A stretch of DNA of 64,000 nucleotides, taken from NCBI GenBank assembly GCA_025094145.1, contig JALLLS010000040.1, positions 1 to 64,000 of the forward strand. The letters are read 5' to 3'. Source of the DNA: Spinellus fusiger (Eukaryota; Mucoromycota; Mucoromycetes; Mucorales; Phycomycetaceae). The position numbers and the translations under genes were made by a program. Positions 1,002-62,771 of this stretch are shown here, piece by piece; positions within the stretch are counted from its first letter, which is position 1, and every line of letters begins with the position of its first letter. Under the pieces are notes generated by a model, which ran no database searches, was not told where the DNA came from, and saw only the letters and a list, made by a program, of their open reading frames with translations.

Positions 1002-4000
1002 CTAGTATGGATAATAGTTACTCTGACCACGATTGTTTCCACCATACCCACCACCGCGTCCACCACCGCGTCCACCTCCGCCGCTGCCTCCTATACCACC
1101 TCTGCCTCTGCCTCTTGTAGGCCCAGCTCCAGGTCCTCCTCCACCTCTATAGCCTCCATAGCCTTGGGTTTGTTGGTAGCCTCCATGATTTCCTTGCTGA
1201 TAGTGGCCCCCTTGACCTCCACCACGGTATCCTCCTCTTCCACCGCCATAAGACTCATTAAGATTATAGCCATGGTTATTATAACCTCCATTGTATCCTC
1301 CCCACTGCTGCTGTGGTGGTGGGGGAGGACCTCCATGCATGTAAGGGTCATGGTAGCCGCCTTGGTAGCCACCACCCCAATTGCCACGACCACGTGCATC
1401 GCCTTGATTGCCATGGTTATAAAATGGATCTACTGGGTAACGTGCACCATCCTCATAATTGCCACCGCCATAGCCACCTCTACCACGGCCACGGTTTCCA
1501 TGACGAAGATTGTTGCTATAGAGATAGATAGATGGATAAATAAATATTTATATATAAGATTTACTGTATAGATCATAGTCTTTATCTTACTGATCACGGT
1601 ATTCTTCCAAATGTTGTATCTGAGGCGTCCAACCACGTCTGTTGTAGGCGCCATGGCGCTCTGTCTTCTCAAAGGTGGCAAGTTGTATATCTTCAAAGTC
1701 CAGAACAGGTTTACACAGCTTGACATTTCGCAGCAGATGTGTCATAAAGATGTAGTTTGGAGGTACTTCAGGGATGTTATAGACAACACTATAGATACAT
1801 TCTAGTAAGCATATGCAGTAATAAAGAGAAGAAAAGAAAGAAAAAAGAAAGCCAATACGTTACCTAATGGATTTATCATTGGCAATGTCAGGAAGATCAT
1901 GACTGGGTAAAGGACTACGCAGGGTGCTTCGAGGAATACATTCAATGTCTTTGTCCACAGTGCCTGTCATGCCATCACTAAGACGAGAATCCAATTTCAA
2001 GGGTTCACTGCTGGTTCTTATTGCGTACACTGTGCTGATAGACTCGTACAGTTTATGAGATTCACCCACAAACAGAATAGCAGGACCTTCTGAGTTTCGC
2101 TGTACTTCTTCCTCTGTGAGTAAATGATATGCTGTGTTCATAGCCTCCAAGAGCCGTCCAGGGTCAATAAAAGGTAGCTTCACCACACCTATTATACGTT
2201 GAAGTATTAACATACTATGACACTAGTATTGTCTTTACCCTGCCAATCCCATTTCTTGCCATCCATATCCACTTCAAAGTCTGTAGGATAGAAATCAATA
2301 ATAGGAGATTGTTCGTCTGTCATCAACTCGTGGAATGGTACAGGAATATGATCACGACTAATCATCCATTATTACTCTATAGGCCAATGCTTTGATATTT
2401 CTTCCTTGATAACATACCTTGCAGCAGGCAAGACACCCATCAACTGTTCAAAGGGTCGAAGGGGTGTACTCAGATCAAATTTGATATCAAACGAGCTTAT
2501 GTTGGTGAAGTTGGATGCCATAGGTGCATAGTGGTATGGATAATACCATGACCATGATACACAACCCTATGCACTGTATAAGTCATTGCCCTAACAAAGA
2601 TATGGTATCTCCTTTTTGCTTACCTTGTAGTAATATTTAAACACCCAGCAAAGTCCCTCACAGTAAGACTTGACAATACTAGATTATACATTAGCCCCAC
2701 CACAGGTACGGTATACTTACTTTTGAATAGCTTCATGGTCATCCAATTGGTAGCCAAACTTAAGATTGTAATAGCGTTCTTTCCATCCATTTTCCCAGAG
2801 ACTAATAGAGAATTAAGGCTGTATGTCTTGTCAGTAAAAGACTTACCGTACAGCATCGTCAGGCTCACGTTCCTTTGCTAGTTCTTCTGCTGCCTTTTTA
2901 TCAGCGGCTACTTTCATCAAGATGGCTCTTCCTGCTGCCTCTAGATCAACAGGCGGCGCCTCTTCTGGCTTGGTTTCCACAACATCTGCTTCTGATTCAG
3001 CATTCACTTCCTCCATGGGTGCTGTCTCTGCATCTACAATGGATTGTGCAGTGGGATCTACAATAGGATCTACAATAGGATCTGCAGTGGATTCTGTCTC
3101 TTCCAGCACATCTGCTTCGTCTGCCTTTCTCTTTACACCTCTCTCAGTCTCGAGTGCTTCAGTTGATTCTGCTACTGGAGTCGATTCCATGAGCTGTGCT
3201 TTGAATGCAGCAGCAGCTGTCTGATTTGCCAATCTTAATTCTGCTCTGTTAGCTACCACTTCACTATTCGACATGCCAGAATGATAGTTATTCACAGGTG
3301 CAGCTGTCATTTCTCCAAAATCAGGACCTCTTGCAAACCGTGCCTCTTCTTCTTTGCGTCTTATATTCTCCAATTTTCTTCGCTTGGCTCCTTTTGCCCG
3401 TCGTTCATCCTCTGTCACCACCCACAGCATGAGTGCCACAATCAACCCACACCACTTGTACACAACTTACTCTCTTTTCTCTCGATGAAGATAGAATCCT
3501 CCATTTTGCCCAATTCATGCACCATGACTTGTACTTTCTTTAAATCTACCTAGAGACCATTTACATAATAATAAACATACTGTTCTAGCCACTACGCACG
3601 CATTACCTCTCCATTGTGGGTCATATAGCCGCCCATCACAGGCATCACTTGTTTCCATAACAGACTGAGGGTGCTGATAGCACCTTCTCTGATCTCAAGA
3701 GAAGGCAGGTGAGGTAAGAAATCGTTACCAACAAAGAAACACATAAACACCCAGTCATCAATAGCACGCTCCAGATCCCAGGGAACACCAGGGACACTGA
3801 ACTTGAGAGCATGTTCAAGATACTCTCTCAAGACATTCACATGCAGGAACACATAAGGCTTTTGTTCTGTCTTTTTCTCCTTTTCAGGTGCTTCTCCATG
3901 GACAGTAGGAGCGTTGGCTGTTCCCCAGAGTGAGTCAATCCCATGTTCTGTACTCATGTTCTGGTACCTACCACTACACTCTGCTGCTGTATGTCCTGGT

Positions 4001-39355: not shown

Positions 39356-39698
39356 AGGTCTATTATTGATATTGTTATTAGGGGTGGAAGGTAAGAAGAA
39401 AGGCAAGGTGTGTTATCCACAACAACAACAACAACAAGTCACAGATCATGACCTTTGTAGAAGAAAGGAGAAAGGAGAAAGGGTCCTTTGCCGTCTCTAT
39501 CTACACACCCAAAGATTTCTGGCCTTTAAGCGGTGATATCTCCTTCCTTTTACGTAAAAGAAAAACGCACCTTATATGGAATAATAATTATAATTAAAGG
39601 GTTTGCGGATATCCAATTGATTATTTCTTTTTGTGGAATACCTCACTATCAAATTGTATTATCAGTAAAATAGTGTTGATGAATAATATTGTTTATTA

Positions 39699-39876
39699 TG
39701 TCGTCTTTGGGTTTTTAGGCCAAAGGTATACGGAACAGTAGAACGTGTAGTTAAACTCTGTTGTTTATTGAATGGAATTGTTACGTCTTTTATACTTTTC
39801 TAATGGTATAGATTCAGGGGTTAACTACACGTTCTACTGTTCCGTATACCTTTGGCCTAAAAACCCAAAGACGACA
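39699..39876. mobile_element. foldback MITE nested in copy A
   Basis: 178 bp with about 54-bp, essentially perfect terminal inverted repeats starting TGTCGTCTTTGGGTTTTTAG and ending in the complement. The ~70 bp between them contains TTTATACTTTTCTAATGG. Copies B and C lack it at the homologous position, so it was inserted into copy A. I could not define a clear target-site duplication. Related partial copies are at 46,107-46,197, 59,262-59,370 (inverted) and 60,030-60,110. Confidence 0.88.
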
Positions 39877-40363
39877 ATATAGATAATACTATAGTATGAC
39901 TATAGCTACTTCTCAAGTGCATTCACTAATAGCAATAGAATCCACACCCTAAAAGCCTTGTGCTTTATCCTTGGGAGATAGATAACTATGCTCAGGAGTA
40001 TACCCTAGACATTATTGACCTTGTAGAAGATCACCTAAGACTGACTTGAAAAGTCTTTACTTGCCTAATAATAATACATTGAGATCAAGCCAAGATGAAG
40101 ACACCACTTACCTTTTTATCACTAGAATAGCCTTTGGTAGTGTCTATTACTTCCTTCTATTGTTTCTCTTTGTTAATAATAACACATTACCTTGCTTATT
40201 TATGCTTATTTTGAACAGTACTTAAGTGTTAAGTTGTATGTGAAATGTGGGAATTAACAAAAGGAGGGAAGTATCAAAACAAATAATAATGTTTCTCTTT
40301 CTATTCTGATGTATTACACTTTAGCCTCTTCTTTCCTACAATTAATTCAAACAATTTACCTTG

Positions 40364-40618
40364 GACCTAAAAAACTGTATTAGACATAATATTTAGTTAT
40401 CATTAAGTATCACTGTTAATACCAGTTACAATGAGTTAGTTGAGGTCATTATGGATATGGATTCAATGAATGACTATACTGTTCTTAATATAATTAAGCT
40501 TGGCTCTATTTTATGGACAATGACCACTAGAGTTAATTCTGTGTGTTCTATAATACATCTTTCTCAAGCAGTGTCATACTGCAAATACTGTGGGCTTAAG
40601 GATAACAAATTATGTTAA
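40364..40618 (+). pseudogene. conserved peptide remnant in copy A
   Basis: Decoded in one frame this gives ...DLKNCIRHNI, a stop, then NELVEVIMDMDSMNDYTVLNI and RVNSVCSIIHL..., ending at a TAA. Copy C has the matching RLKDSIRNNILLL...AEVIMNIDSINHYTVLNI...RVNSV. Differences between A and C fall often at third codon positions (GAG/GAA, GTC/GTG, ATT/ATA), so it evolved as protein. I do not recognise the family. Its place upstream of where the Fanzor C-terminal half lies in copy B suggests a Fanzor N-terminal segment. Confidence 0.45.
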
Positions 40619-40955
40619 ACAATAAATGCAGTGACTGAGTTGTAATATTAAGTGGATTCTGGTTCTATCTCTTGTTTTTACAGCTAATTCTATACTTTCT
40701 AATTACAAAGTCAGAAGCTATTGCCTAAACAGGCAAGTAGAGTTTGAGATAGTATATTTGGACATCGAAAAGGCCTTTTAAAACACATTAGCCAATCACA
40801 TGAATAATACAATTTTATTCTCAGAATATTTCCTTCTATATCCCAAAAATCTTTGGGTGTGTATCACGGAGTCATTCCTATATTTGTGTGTCTATTTTCT
40901 ATTGCAGCCCTTGGCAAAGACTGGACGTCATTTCTTCCTTTCTATCCAACTTGCC

Positions 40956-46197: not shown

Positions 46198-46940
46198 TTC
46201 TAATGGATATTATTTACTACACACCAGGAGATTTTTCTGGCTTTTAGGCGGGGATATCTCCTTCCTTTTACGTCTAAATTTTCTTGCCTTTTATGGAACT
46301 GTGTTTAAAATCAAGAGGTTTGTGGATATCAAAAATAATATTTCCTTTTGTGGATATCTCAATATCAAATTGTATTATCAGTAAAATATATTGTTTATGG
46401 ATAAAATTGTTTATTATAATAGTATAGCTAATACTATAGTATGACTATAGCTACTGCCCAAGTGCATTCCCTCATAGCAATAGAGTCCACACCCTAAAAG
46501 CTTTGTGATTTATCCTTGGGAGATAGATAAATATGCTCAGAAGTATACCCTAGACATTATTGACCTTGTAGAAGACCCCCTAAGACTGACTTGAGAGCCT
46601 CTGCTTAATAACAATACAATGAGTGTCTTGTGGAATACAATGAGCACAAGCTGAGATGAAGACACTGCTTATCTTTTTACTTTCAGAACAGTCCTTGGTA
46701 GTGTCTACAACTTCTTTCTACTGTTTTTCTTTGTTAATAATGGCACATTACCTTGCTCAGATATGCTCATCTTGACGAGTACTTGGGCGTTAATTTGTAT
46801 GTGCAGTGTGAAAAATAACAAGATAATAACAAGACCAAAGAATAAAAAATATTTTTATTCTGGTGAGGTAACAGTCCCATGTAATAAATGAGTAGACGGC
46901 AAATCAATTTTCTATTTCTATTTTACAGTTTATTCAAACA

Positions 46941-47345
46941 ATGAAAATCAGCCAACTCATAGCCAAGAACATAAAGATAGTCCTATCAAAAGAAGAGAGA
47001 ATAATATGTTTACTAGAGGTCAAATCACAGGACAATGGAAAAGACATGTTACTTATCAATAGATTGCTGACAATGTCGACATCCCAAAGAGCACAGATTG
47101 TCCTATTGTATAAAAACAAAGGTACGATTCAACTCAAAATACATACAGAAAAATCTGAAAAGGTGTCATCTACTTCAAAACTGGCTATTATTTTGTCTAT
47201 TCGCAGAAACCCTATGAAAACAATTGTATATGATTTGAGAAATATGAATGATGTAAAAACAAGGTTCTTTGGTCTGATGAATCCTGTTTTACAGTTGTGT
47301 ACAATAATAAAAGGACTAGAGTGGTGAAGAATAAAGACTATTACA
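46941..47345 (+). pseudogene. mariner-like transposase, 5' remnant
   Basis: One frame reads STSQRAQIVLLYKNKGTIQ, a Tc1/mariner-type helix-turn-helix start. About 80 codons on, a different frame (47,262-47,325) reads VLWSDESCFTVVYNNKRTRV, the block carrying the first catalytic Asp (WSDES). The rest, with the second Asp and the Glu, is absent. At least one frameshift and a 3' truncation make it inactive. It replaces the conserved-peptide region found in copies A and C. Confidence 0.65.
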
Positions 47346-47768
47346 AAGCACTGAGCAATATCTTTATAATAAAAATGTAGACAATCAATTAAAGAACAAC
47401 TATTCCAAATATTGTATTATTCCATGAATCTTTTATTATGAACATCTTTGACTGATAGATGTACCTTTATTTTTCAAAATAAAATAAAAAGAATTCTGTC
47501 AACTCACTTATTGTTGGGACTGTATATGTACATAGAAAACATGCGGGATTCACAGTTTCCATTGATAGATACACAATATTTATGCTTTAGCACAACTTCT
47601 TAGTTTTCAAATCACGGATTGAATCAATGGCATGTGGAAACCAATTATAAAACAGAAATAGTATAAAAAGAATAGGTCAACTCGTCTTTATTTTATTTTC
47701 TTCATGGAACGTACTCTAAAGATGATAGCAGTAAAAAGCTCAATCACTGGTATTGAATAGAAGCCGAG

Positions 47769-48594
47769 TTGTCTTTATCAGGACATATATCTTCAACAGT
47801 CAATTGTGAAAGGTTTGCAAGATACATCGAGGAAAGAGCCAGAGTCACCCCAGTATTGCATAACTATTATTCAAATGAAGATACTCCTGCTATGGAAAAC
47901 CGGAATGCCAATGGTTTACTCCCATTTCTTAAAATGAAACTTTCAAGCTTTATTAATCAGCAACAATCAGACAAACGGCTAGCTAGAAATCTTCGAAGAA
48001 AGTTTGGCGATGATGCTGTAATGGTGATTGGCAATTGGTCTGTAGGAAACACAAAGTTCCATGAACCAGTGAGAGGTGTTGGAATAAGAAGAATGTTGAA
48101 GAAAGAAGGGTTCAAGGTGTTCCTTATTGATGAGTTCAAAACATCTATTTTTTGTCCTTCTTGTAAGAACGGTGAGCTTGAGAAATTCAAGAAAGTACAA
48201 AACCCAAGACCCTTCAGAAGAGAGAAGAACCCCACAGTGACATGTCATGGTCTTTTAAGGTAAAAATACTCTTCTTTCTTCTTTTATAAAAGTCAAAGAA
48301 AAGGCTAATTAGTTTATTACTATTTTATTTAGGTGCAAAAACCAACAATGTTTGAAGATCATGACTAAAACTGCTGGAGTTTCTGATGAGATAATTTCTC
48401 AACGCTTTTGGAATCGGGACATGGCAGCAACATTGAACTTTCGTCATGTTCTTTTTGGACTACGAGAGGAAGGCAAGCGACCCAAGCGCTTTTGTCGATC
48501 CAAGACAATACAGTCTGTTGGTACCAAAAGAAAGGAGACACCATTAGCTAGTAGTAGCCGACCCACCAAAACATCAAAAAAGAATCCGGTGTAG
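47769..48594 (+). pseudogene. Fanzor-type RNA-guided nuclease (TnpB homologue), C-terminal half
   Basis: C-terminal half of a Fanzor1-type protein, the eukaryotic relative of TnpB, which uses a guide RNA to cleave DNA through a RuvC domain. Exon 1 (47,769-48,259) and exon 2 (48,333-48,594) are joined by a 73-nt GTAAAA...TTTAG intron giving LLRCKNQQC. Visible in order are ERFARYIEERARV, VMVIGNWSVGNTKFHEPVRGVGIRRML, VFLIDEFKTSIFCPSC, CHGLLRCKNQQC (completing a four-Cys zinc finger), and FWNRDMAATLNFRHVLF with the RuvC-III Asp. A basic tail (KRPKRFCR...) ends at 48,594. The upstream frame has a TGA at 47,754-47,756, and no ATG or RuvC-I Asp block was found between 47,345 and 47,769, so the N-terminal half is missing. 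Not functional as it stands. Confidence 0.8.
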
Positions 48595-48848
48595 TTATCG
48601 CTACACTAAACCAAGATACACGTAAGTCTCTTTTGAACCATACTACATTTCTATACTATAATTTCCCCAAAGATGCACCAATACTTTACGACAATAGTGT
48701 AGCTATTGCTAGAATAGGCAGACAGAGTTTGAAATTGTTCATTTAGACAGCGAAAATACCCTTTTTTAAATACATTAGCCAATCATAAGAATATTGCGAT
48801 TTTATTGTCCGTGTATTGACTTTTATATCCCAAGAATCTTTAGGTGTG
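48595..48848 (+). ncRNA. candidate omega-RNA (guide scaffold) at the transposon right end
   Basis: In TnpB, IscB and Fanzor systems the guide RNA is made from the 3' end of the nuclease gene through the right end of the element. Here the 254 bp from the Fanzor stop to the right terminus contain ~160 bp conserved in copies A and C, although A and C lack the Fanzor C-terminal half. The conserved part includes a hairpin TGCT-AGAATA-GGCA (48,707-48,720) and the motif ATTAGCCAATCA. Transcription was not observed; this is inference. Confidence 0.25.
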
Positions 48849-49038
48849 TAATGACCAGCTAAATAAATAATAAAGAGCCCTTCTTGATAGAGTATCATCC
48901 CTTAGATATACGCCTTGCTAATTCACTCATCTTCTACCATGGGGTCCCATTTAGGCAATTGTGTTTCTATTGACTGGGATGATCTATAGTTCTATTTATG
49001 GAAAAGTGATTATCTGACAAGGGTCCACTGTAATATTA

Positions 49039-49857
49039 CAGCCACACCCAATTGAATTGAATACTTGCCTATATTTTAATGAAAAAATAACTTTTTTTTT
49101 GCATAAGACTCTTATTCATTCTAAATAGTGTTAAGCCAATACAATATATCAGATAGATATTTAGAAATCCATACTCGTGGAGAATAGAACAAGGCAAAAG
49201 ATAGAAGACTATTGGGCATTTATTACCAGTTGAAGGCTAGATTAAAATTGAATGTGATTGCAAATGTAGAGATGAAAAAACCTATAGTTCAAAATAATAT
49301 TAGAAATATCAATAAACACATATCACTAATACATTTAGAACGTCATGGAAATGCATCAGAAAGGAGAACAGAGAGTTTCTGTTACAAGAATAGGGTGCTG
49401 GCTGTCCTACTGGGGTCTATGCCAGAGGGTGAAAAAGACACATAAAATTAAGAGCTTTGAGTACTAGTCTATACAGAGTCCTGATTTGAACCCAATTGAA
49501 CATATCTGGTGAGCCTTGGAAAGACCAATTGAAGAAAGGAGAGTATTTGTTACCAATGTTGAATGTTTGAATACTCTACTTGTAGAAGAGTTGGAGAGGG
49601 TTGGTATTGAACTTGCACAATAATGAATTCAAAGTATGACAGATACTGTACAGTCATTGATGCCAAAGGAGACCCTACAAAATATTAACTGTATTATTAT
49701 TATTATTATTTTCTATAATTAAAGATATTGAACTTTGGTATGCTTAAGTTTGAATATTCCATATCAAATGTGGAGTGGTTTATTTAATGTTGAACATGTC
49801 ATATATTTCGTCCTGATATTTATATTCAAAGGTATTCAATTCAATTGGGTGTGGCTG
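49039..49857 (+). mobile_element. internally deleted Tc1/mariner element (copy D)
   Basis: 819 bp element flanked by TA, with 26-bp perfect terminal inverted repeats beginning CAGCCACACCCAATTGAATT (left at 49,039; right ends 49,857). Inside is the 3' part of a mariner transposase: a frame at about 49,430-49,620 reads THKIKSFEY, stop, SIQSPDLNPIEHIW, stop, ALERPIEERRVF, including the catalytic Glu block SPDLNPIEHIW. The N-terminal two thirds are missing and there are stop codons, so it is non-autonomous. The perfect TIRs suggest that it could have moved fairly recently using a transposase supplied elsewhere. Confidence 0.85.
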
Positions 49858-60227: not shown

Positions 60228-61458
60228 CACACCCAAAGATTTTTCTGGCCTTTAAGCGGTGATATATCCTTCCTTTTACGAGGGTCCCAATTTTGCCCTT
60301 TTATGGAACAATGATTAAAATCAAAGGTTTGCAAGTATCTAAACTATTATTTCTTTTTGTAGTATACCTCAATATCAAATTAATTATCAATAGAATATAG
60401 TGTTGATGAATAGTATTGTTTATCATAATAATGTAGCTAATACTATACTATTATTATAGCTACTGCTGTTCTAGGTATATTCCTTCATAGCAATAGAATC
60501 TATACCCTAGAAGCCTTGTGCTTTGTTCTTGGGAGATAGATAACTATGCTCAGGAGTATACCCTAGACAGCCTAGACATATTAGACAGTATAGAAGGAAG
60601 AATAGACCACCTGAGACTGACTTGAGAAATAGTCTTTATTTATCTAATAACAGAAGAGTGTATTAGTAATAATTCAATCAAGAGAGATAATATGCTTACC
60701 TTGTACTTCATACTTGTCTTGAGAATGATGAGTCATATATCATCTATTAGAAGAAGAGTCAGTACTATGTCTTGTGGATTACATTGAACTCAAGCCCAGA
60801 GGAAGGCATTGCTTACCTTTTTATCACTAGAATAGTCTTTGCTAGTGGCTATTATTTTCTCTTCTATTGTTTCTCTTTGTTAATAATGGCACATTGCCTT
60901 GTTCAGTTATGCTTATCTTGACGAATACTTAGGTGTCAAGTTGTATGGTCGGTGTAGGAAATAACAAGACAAGGGGATTATCAAAACAAATAATAATCTT
61001 TCTTTTTCTATTCTGGTATATTATAATTTAGCCCTTACTCATAAAATTCACAAGTCAAACAATTCACACGTATTCTTTATTGAGACTAAAGGACAGTATT
61101 AGAAACAATATCTTGCTCCTAATAATTAATATTGCTGATAACACTTACAACAAGACAGTTGCTGAAGTGATAATGAATATTGATTCAATAAATCACTATA
61201 CTGTTCTTAATATAAGTGAATTTGGTTTTATTCTCTGGACATTGATTAATAGAGTTAATTCAGTATCTGTGTTTCTATATTAGCTTTATATATTCCTTTT
61301 ATATCCAATTTTATAGCGTTTAATTACAAAGTCAATAGTCATTGCTAAAATAGGCACATGGAGTTTGAATGGTTTATTTAAACATCAAACAGGTCTGTTC
61401 AAACATATTAGCCAATCAGAGAAATATTATGATTTTATTCTCCATATTTTTCCTTATA

Positions 61459-62746
61459 CACTTTTTCCAGAAATTATTAATGAAAAAATAAACATGAAAT
61501 TGGTGCATTCCATTTATGCACCAAGTGTACTAAATAAATGAATTTATTATAAACATATTCTTTCTAAACAATTGTCAAATCTGGACTGGGACTATCTACT
61601 GAATCCTTGCAAGACACTGAACAGTACTTTATTACAAAGAATATGAGATTGTTGAGGATAGTGTTTCCTCATCCAAAAGAGCTTCTTTTTTGAGTTTACT
61701 CTTTACAACTAACCAGAGCTGCTCAATAGGAATAAGCTCAGGCGAATAAGGTGGAAGATAGACGCAGCCATATCCTCTACCCTCAATGTAAAGCTGAATG
61801 TCCCTATCCATAAAAATAGAGACATTGTCTGTGATCAAATACAGTCCCACCCTTACCTTTTTGACACTGAATGGGACCAATTACTGCTATTCTATTCTTC
61901 AAAGCTGCCTCGTCAATGAAAGCATAGTTGCTCAAGAAATCAATGTTGGTTTTCTGCCAACAAGTAACCCATTTGTACCTTTCTTCAATCTTTTTGGGAC
62001 TATTTCGCTCAACTGAATACAAATGAGCTCTTTTGAGTGTGAAATGACATTTCTTGGCAAGGAAGTCATGCAAAGTAGATTTCTTGATTTCAAGACTCAT
62101 AAACTGGGCATTCAACCGCTCCATCATTTCCTCCAAGACACTATCTGGCTTTTCATCTATCATGTCAACCACAAAATCCTTGTGTTCTTTGCATAGTTTA
62201 GGTGGTCTTCCAGCCAAATTACTATTGGAAATGCTACCATATTTTCTGTGAGGTAAGTCCTCATCCTTATTTAAACTTTCTGTTTCTTTTTTGAACTAGT
62301 TTTGACCAGTGCTAGGAGATATATTGACCTTTTTGCAAGCAGCACGGACACTAAGTTGCTTCTCATATACCCAATAAAAAAAGCCTGTCCTTATCCTCTT
62401 TTTCATATTAATAATAGCTTGATTTTTCAACCTGGTCATTTTTGATGCTTTTATCATCTAAGTTGTCGAGTTTATTATCCTTGACTTGCTTTTCTATAGG
62501 CTTCAGTTCCACGTAGTGTCTAAAGTTTGTGACGTTGTGCAGTGGGTATTGTTCATTGTCCACCTCCATATCCAGAACAGCAACTGAACCCTCCTCTTCG
62601 TTGTAAAGATTTTCACTTTCATCTTTGTAAATAAATGGATCCATGTTCAATTTTGAATGTTTTTTTTATATTTTTTTTTAAAAACACTGTATAAAAGTGC
62701 ACCAAATTCGTTTTTATCTTTGCAGCAATAATTTTCGGAAAGACTG
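61459..62746 (-). mobile_element. Tc1/mariner element nested in copy C
   Basis: 1,288 bp inserted at a TA, with TA on both sides. The terminal inverted repeats are imperfect: CACTTTTTCCAGAAATTATT on the left and the complement of AATAATTTTCGGAAAGACTG on the right. It contains a broken transposase gene on the minus strand. Size, TA target and transposase type agree with the Tc1/mariner superfamily. Confidence 0.88.
61632..62650 (-). pseudogene. mariner DD34E transposase, frame-shifted and deleted
   Basis: Read leftwards. An acidic N-terminal leader (MDPFIYKDESENLYNEEEGSVAVLD) runs to a stop. A helix-turn-helix region (about 62,230-62,400) and GRPPKLCKEHKDFVVDMIDEKPDSVLEE follow, then FLSNYAFIDEA (first Asp). 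The ~60 residues normally between the first and second Asp are deleted, and the frame shifts. LITDNVSIFMDRD (second Asp) and LPPYSPELIPIEQLW (Glu, 34 residues after the second Asp) complete the catalytic set. Related to but distinct from the 17-kb copy. Confidence 0.85.
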
Positions 62747-62771
62747 TATATCCCAAAAATCTTTGGATGTG

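Follow-up and report, generated by a model that had tools for sequence, protein, structure and literature searches.

In the stretch of Spinellus fusiger DNA analysed here (64,000 nucleotides, hereafter the window), positions 46220-48848 are taken up by a Fanzor1-carrying transposon copy with Tc1/mariner-like ends that is dead and has lost an internal segment; the deleted form has spread as a subfamily of its own. Copies with a 3' region of the window type (hereafter A1) show a preference for positions after TTAC-TA, confined to the left side, and the elements of a second, Fanzor-like family (B) sit behind YC-TA. The best explanation, and a probable one, is that a dead, deleted Fanzor1 element has spread in trans and that the left motif is the TAM footprint of Fanzor-guided copying.

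The element and its immediate flanks are composed of the features given below, in which L039 and L040 denote longer natural copies in the same genome and TIR a terminal inverted repeat.

46214-46217, + strand: TTAC flank outside the left TA, the TAM-like motif of A1 (from the paired-element counts for A1 and B given below)
46218-46219, no strand: left TA target site duplication (window sequence; TA at 240 of the 248 listed left ends)
46220-46260, + strand: left TIR and conserved subterminal sequence (748 genome matches to the left-end pattern at up to 3 mismatches; reversed control 0)
46896-47327, + strand: relic of a transposase, presumably of Tc1 type, with the helix-turn-helix part followed by loss and frame changes (open reading frame)
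47704-47753, + strand: likely Fanzor gene start, surviving, with ATG at 47704 (start region as in the open frames of L039 and L040)
47754-47766, no strand: junction of the internal deletion of ~1.25 kb (overlap of the two-piece L040 alignment; crossed by at least 18 other places)
47757-48259, + strand: Fanzor1 exon, C-terminal part, with RuvC-II, IDEFKTS and the first zinc-finger Cys pair
48260-48332, + strand: GT-AG intron (joining of open exons; boundaries repeated in L040)
48333-48594, + strand: last Fanzor1 exon, with the second zinc-finger Cys pair, the WNRD of RuvC-III and the stop
48673-48850, + strand: putative omega-RNA scaffold, ending with the right TIR and TA (by analogy with the Fanzor1 reRNAs in the available text of PMC10711439)
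48824-48848, + strand: right TIR (exact 24-mer pattern followed by W, 63 genome matches)
48849-48850, no strand: right TA target site duplication (window sequence; TA at 59 of the 63 type-A right ends)
48851-48865, + strand: putative guide segment in the host DNA adjoining the right end (by the same analogy, the reRNAs running ~15 nt past the duplication)

A TA-flanked element with inverted ends had been proposed in the preliminary description of this DNA, and its limits are confirmed by reading of the sequence, which begins with CACACC at 46220, closes with GGTGTG at 48848 and has TA on both sides. Both the terminal inverted repeats and the TA target site duplication characteristic of Tc1/mariner elements are present, the latter also at 99 of the 100 listed type-B right ends. 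The TIR had been put at 17 bp; the ends do match across about that length, but with just 13 identities in 17 positions by a by-eye count. The 3' region of the element comprises 254 bp and closes with the right TIR.

The identity of the gene as a spliced Fanzor1, also claimed in the preliminary description, is borne out by sequence. Removal of the intron joins two open exons into one frame of 254 amino acids, and the zinc-finger cysteines and the GNWS, IDEFKTS and WNRDMAATLNF blocks are all present; in the close copy L040 these align to solved Fanzor1 proteins. A phmmer search of the PDB with L040 retrieved the Fz1 of Parasitella parasitica (PpFz1; 9cf0, E 3.8e-140) and that of Spizellomyces punctatus (8gkh, E 6.5e-53), the alignment to solved Fanzor1 covering DPGRRD, GNWS, DEFKTS, the zinc finger and WNRD. 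The full Fanzor1 motif set (RuvC DPG; GNWS and DEFKTS; WNRD; C4 zinc finger) occurs in L040, and the window copy is without the RuvC-I part. The PDB and protein searches place the product inside Fanzor1, so that the refuting outcome named in the preliminary description, a placement outside TnpB/Fanzor, did not occur. With the Pfam profile Cas12f1-like_TNB, a general TnpB/Cas12f zinc-finger profile that is not specific to Fanzor1, the window product scored 17 bits and L040 14.3 bits, both under the cut-off of 26.3. A search of 5.8 billion proteins yielded 279 homologues; among the 120 matches listed, the best is from Rhizopus (65% identity, whole query), the named homologues belong mostly to the Mucorales, with some from Syncephalis and Coemansia, and none is similar enough to represent a copy from the present genome. 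The PpFz1 chain has 99 extra residues that fall between L040 query residues 357 and 361, and the stretch missing from L040 is probably the FRI domain of PpFz1. In a codon test among the copies, no clear signal of purifying selection on the Fanzor frame was observed, the pN/pS values (0.91 for singleton and 0.74 for shared transitions; 1.45 and 1.06 for the corresponding transversions) pointing to near-neutral decay.

The copy had been described as 5'-truncated. This does not hold, since the likely start ATG survives and ~1.25 kb is gone internally: positions 1-1567 of the L040 element align to 46220-47766 and positions 2812-3902 to 47754-48848. The deletion takes out the middle of the protein including the RuvC-I Asp, and the frame from ATG 47704 meets a stop at the junction. 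Among 80 matches with the window element (from 40 of 1956 candidates scored), the junction is aligned without a break at at least 18 places besides the window, 12 of which are also without ~560 bp matching 47987-48545. The further prediction of an intact source copy has so far been borne out only in part: longer copies exist, including the full-length L039, L040 and L041 of ~3.9 kb, but among the copies read all eight that cover at least 502 of the 565 residues are broken by stops or frame changes outside the intron (one of the eight, C114, is cut by a contig end). One premature stop in the N-terminal part is common to six of these eight, and another further on occurs in two. The Fanzor1 gene is carried by a TIR element whose related ends number in the hundreds across the genome, and copies of this element do contain Fanzor, as had been anticipated. 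A profile search for the TNB family gave at least 147 matches over the cut-off, with 150 of 457 candidates scored. The spread of the deleted form as a subfamily implies that it moved in trans, and the stop shared by six of the longer copies implies that copies of the family spread even with a non-working gene in cis. The family looks old.

Movement of the window element in trans also follows from the state of its own transposase, a decayed relic in the left half that the preliminary description had missed. The 146-residue frame of L040 that matches the relic resembles HTH_23 (E 0.01) and the Sleeping Beauty helix-turn-helix (E 0.12), both below cut-off, and its Tc1 type is otherwise presumed from motifs typical of that group. 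Within the window element there is no DDE_3 match among the matches listed (at least 174 genome-wide, with 150 of 1544 candidates scored). The suggestion that the family is Fanzor-mobilising has to be given up, as nothing seen shows Fanzor moving the element. An open transposase frame of 440 amino acids enclosed by long inverted ends (L105, C110:631250-633200) was considered as the mobiliser and rejected, since it is part of a different element, one that entered the 3' region of a Fanzor element at a TA; more 440-residue frames occur among the DDE_3 matches listed. Just outside the window element, SPDLNPIE is readable at 49476-49500 on the + strand, which may be the end of another decayed Tc1-type transposase.

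For the analysis of the flanks, 248 left ends, 63 type-A right ends and 100 type-B right ends were gathered by pattern searches and paired by position. Besides A1, the type-A elements include A2, in which the middle of the 3' region is replaced, and A3, with the same ends and a 3' region alike only across its last part (~78-82%). Excluded before counting were C113 and C139 (TTAC, right end not found; both favourable to the motif) and C182, the ends of which do not pair. The paired elements were drawn from the places listed and lean to low-numbered contigs.

The dinucleotide AC directly precedes the left TA in 17 of the 23 paired A1 elements (mostly as TTAC, with TAC in 16) and in three of the four A2 elements, leaving six and one exceptions, respectively. 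It is found in none of the five A3 and none of the 36 B elements (A1 vs B, Fisher p 3.6e-10; A1 vs A3, p 0.005). Family B has YC at this position in 29 of 36, the table being made up of 27, 7 and 2 pairs, of which the last two (C192, ACCT; C35, AGGC) are not YC. The mirrored motifs are rarer on the right: GT at 3 of 55 type-A right ends (p 1.4e-9 against A1 left ends), a set that covers all type-A ends and not A1 alone and is left from the 63 after subtraction of four duplicates and four ends without TA, and GR at 18 of 99 type-B right ends (p 4e-11 against YC at the left), 99 of the 100 listed ends being counted. Type-A right flanks are flat, with 0.05 bits at each of +1 and +2. By manual sorting, AC is kept in 11 of 14 deletion copies as against five of six longer copies, the lone longer exception being an A2 copy. 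TTAC stands at 28 of the 453 exactly matching left ends: 13 among the listed window-element matches, one paired A2 element and 14 others. Twelve of the latter were sampled over 141 bp each; nine matched A1 copies best, at 89-98%, and the remainder gave one weak A1 match, one best match to family B and one to an unclassified end. These sampled ends appear to lend mild support to the A1 motif, the left subterminal sequence hardly separating the families.

Right ends of the other type number 196 by pattern; those read belong to elements whose Fanzor- or TnpB-like remnants (CGIVWNRD; DEFRTS) are in a more decayed state. A 74-residue piece from family B matched Cas12m (E 3.8e-5), a TranC protein (0.008) and a viral TnpB-like protein (0.02), and a comparison with controls showed that the left ends and left subterminal sequence of family B resemble those of the window family. 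The motif seems to go with the cargo at the right and not with the TIR at the left, a pattern that fits the TAM/guide logic of Fanzor1.

Other related elements were also observed. The window holds a second one of 1.36 kb at 39504-40861, with its left end behind CTATC-TA, an A3-type right end at 40837-40863 and no Fanzor match inside, and a third at 60228-62771, with ends of the same kind, the left flank TTAGAA-TA, no + strand frame longer than 83 amino acids and no Fanzor match. The same right flank recurs at four right ends on the two contigs C94 and C189, in both orientations, which suggests duplicated or inverted assembly segments.

In the proposed mechanism, the right TIR and TA at the 3' end of every copy would act as the omega-RNA scaffold and the host DNA adjoining the right end as the guide. 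Fanzor supplied by other copies would load these omega-RNAs and cleave alleles in which that site is empty, with the left-flank motif recognised as the TAM, and repair of the cut allele would copy the element back. Insertions behind a fitting motif would be kept by such cutting and repair, and the enrichment of the motif is proposed to arise for this reason. A wider claim, which is evenly poised, is that the persistence of individual insertions of a cut-and-paste eukaryotic transposon is decided in trans by Fanzor complexes, survival being favoured behind the TAM that matches the carried omega-RNA scaffold (TTAC-TA for one cargo, YC-TA for another) and leaving a genome-wide homing footprint that serves also the copies without a working gene.

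Some observations count against the TAM reading. Four elements bear left-type ends at both termini, and at six of their eight ends the TA is preceded by C; 50 of the 99 right ends of family B have G immediately after the TA; target preference thus probably contributes to that base. In the available text of PMC11423790, the TAM of PpFz1, the nearest tested relative, is ATN. Also to be set against this reading are the A1 and A2 exceptions, the absence of a clear selection signal on the Fanzor frame, the broken state of the eight longer copies and the fold and covariation results given below. The C and G counts at the ends of these elements, together with the frequent C before the left TA in both families and the persistence of the motif in copies without a working Fanzor, would also suit an orientation-specific target preference of the transposases moving each family, with Fanzor a passenger that plays no role in copy survival. 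Target preferences of Tc1/mariner elements are generally palindromic, however, and the flat type-A right flanks are unlike such a preference; A1, A3 and B, moreover, share their TIRs and have similar left subterminal sequence, yet differ in motif, and a pure target preference is therefore considered unlikely. That TTAC is itself part of the element, with the true left boundary outside the TA, is highly improbable: TTAC is frequent beside the left end of A1 copies, but conservation peaks beside the TA and is lower outward (2.05, 0.77, 0.62, 0.67, 0.47 and 0.14 bits), AC is lost as a whole in most motif exceptions, and at the right ends TA directly follows GGTGTG in 59 of 63.

The 3' region was also examined for traits of an omega-RNA. 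No RNA structure beyond chance emerged from RNAalifold runs with 48 copies, from the folding of single strands or from comparison with shuffles (mean fold z 0.15 over 20 of the 48 copies; 0.50 for the window), and covariation across the 48 copies is negligible. A 7-bp terminal stem is possible in 45 of 48 copies, with a fold energy no better than that of shuffles, and is uninformative, because pairing, standard or wobble, survives nearly every transition in the 5' strand and the exact pattern that gathered many of the copies fixes the 3' strand. In two 20-nt steps, the segment 48689-48728 diverges by 2.1% and 3.5%, as against a median of 6.6% and a 5th percentile of 2.9% for the left part; it is the only standout conserved block of the 3' region not favoured by the copy collection, with one half below the 5th percentile; the last 40 nt also diverge little, a value biased by collection with the exact pattern.

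If the Fanzor-guided explanation holds, the motif left of an insertion should be the TAM recognised by the enzyme that uses the RNA scaffold at the right end. In the present genome, hundreds of related ends, two Fanzor-like kinds of cargo, left ends that are alike and motifs that differ allow a direct test of this prediction. The available text of PMC10432273 gives the biological role of Fanzors as unknown, and a motif resembling a recognition mark may help to show what Fanzor does for its transposon.

The element is of the Fanzor1-in-Tc/mariner type known since 2013, and the arrangement cannot be regarded as new: Fanzor1 in Tc/mariner elements was described by Bao and Jurka (PMC3627910, as are all comparisons with that study from its available text), with Fanzors of Mucor, Rhizopus and Phycomyces in Table 1. 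As in the window, the Tc/mariner elements of that study carry Fanzor1 between TIRs, are flanked by TA duplications and in some cases have Fanzor without a transposase. Those named there are without the fungal prefixes of Table 1, and the Mucorales elements are MuDr-like or unclassified, unlike the window element. The present family further differs in its hundreds of related ends in one genome and its nested deletion forms.

Among solved proteins, the Parasitella parasitica Fanzor1 is the best relative by sequence (9cf0; available text of PMC11423790), and it differs in its TAM, ATN, and in having the additional 99 residues. The TAMs of GtFz1 and SpuFz1 are assigned in opposite ways in the available texts of PMC11423790 and PMC10432273, and the latter was followed here. 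In the SpuFz1 elements described there, CA before the left inverted repeat agrees with a CATA TAM, and the DNA that follows the right end serves as guide; the published Fanzor1 reRNAs include TIR and target site duplication (PMC10711439, available text). The Fanzor literature searched, with partial journal coverage, contained no mention of this Mucorales family or of Mucorales left-flank motifs, and within that coverage a cargo-linked left-flank motif is not described for such elements, so that the asymmetry seems to be new. The closest parallel is offered by Spu-1/SpuFz1 and its 'ghost' elements (PMC10432273, available text), which likewise have inverted repeats, gene-less copies that keep the 3' region and TAM-like bases at the left. 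The present family differs from Spu-1 in its motif, which is TTAC(TA) or YC(TA) and not CA, and in having no intact gene among the eight longer copies read; its genome differs in harbouring Fanzor-like cargo of two types, whose left ends are similar and whose left-flank motifs are not.
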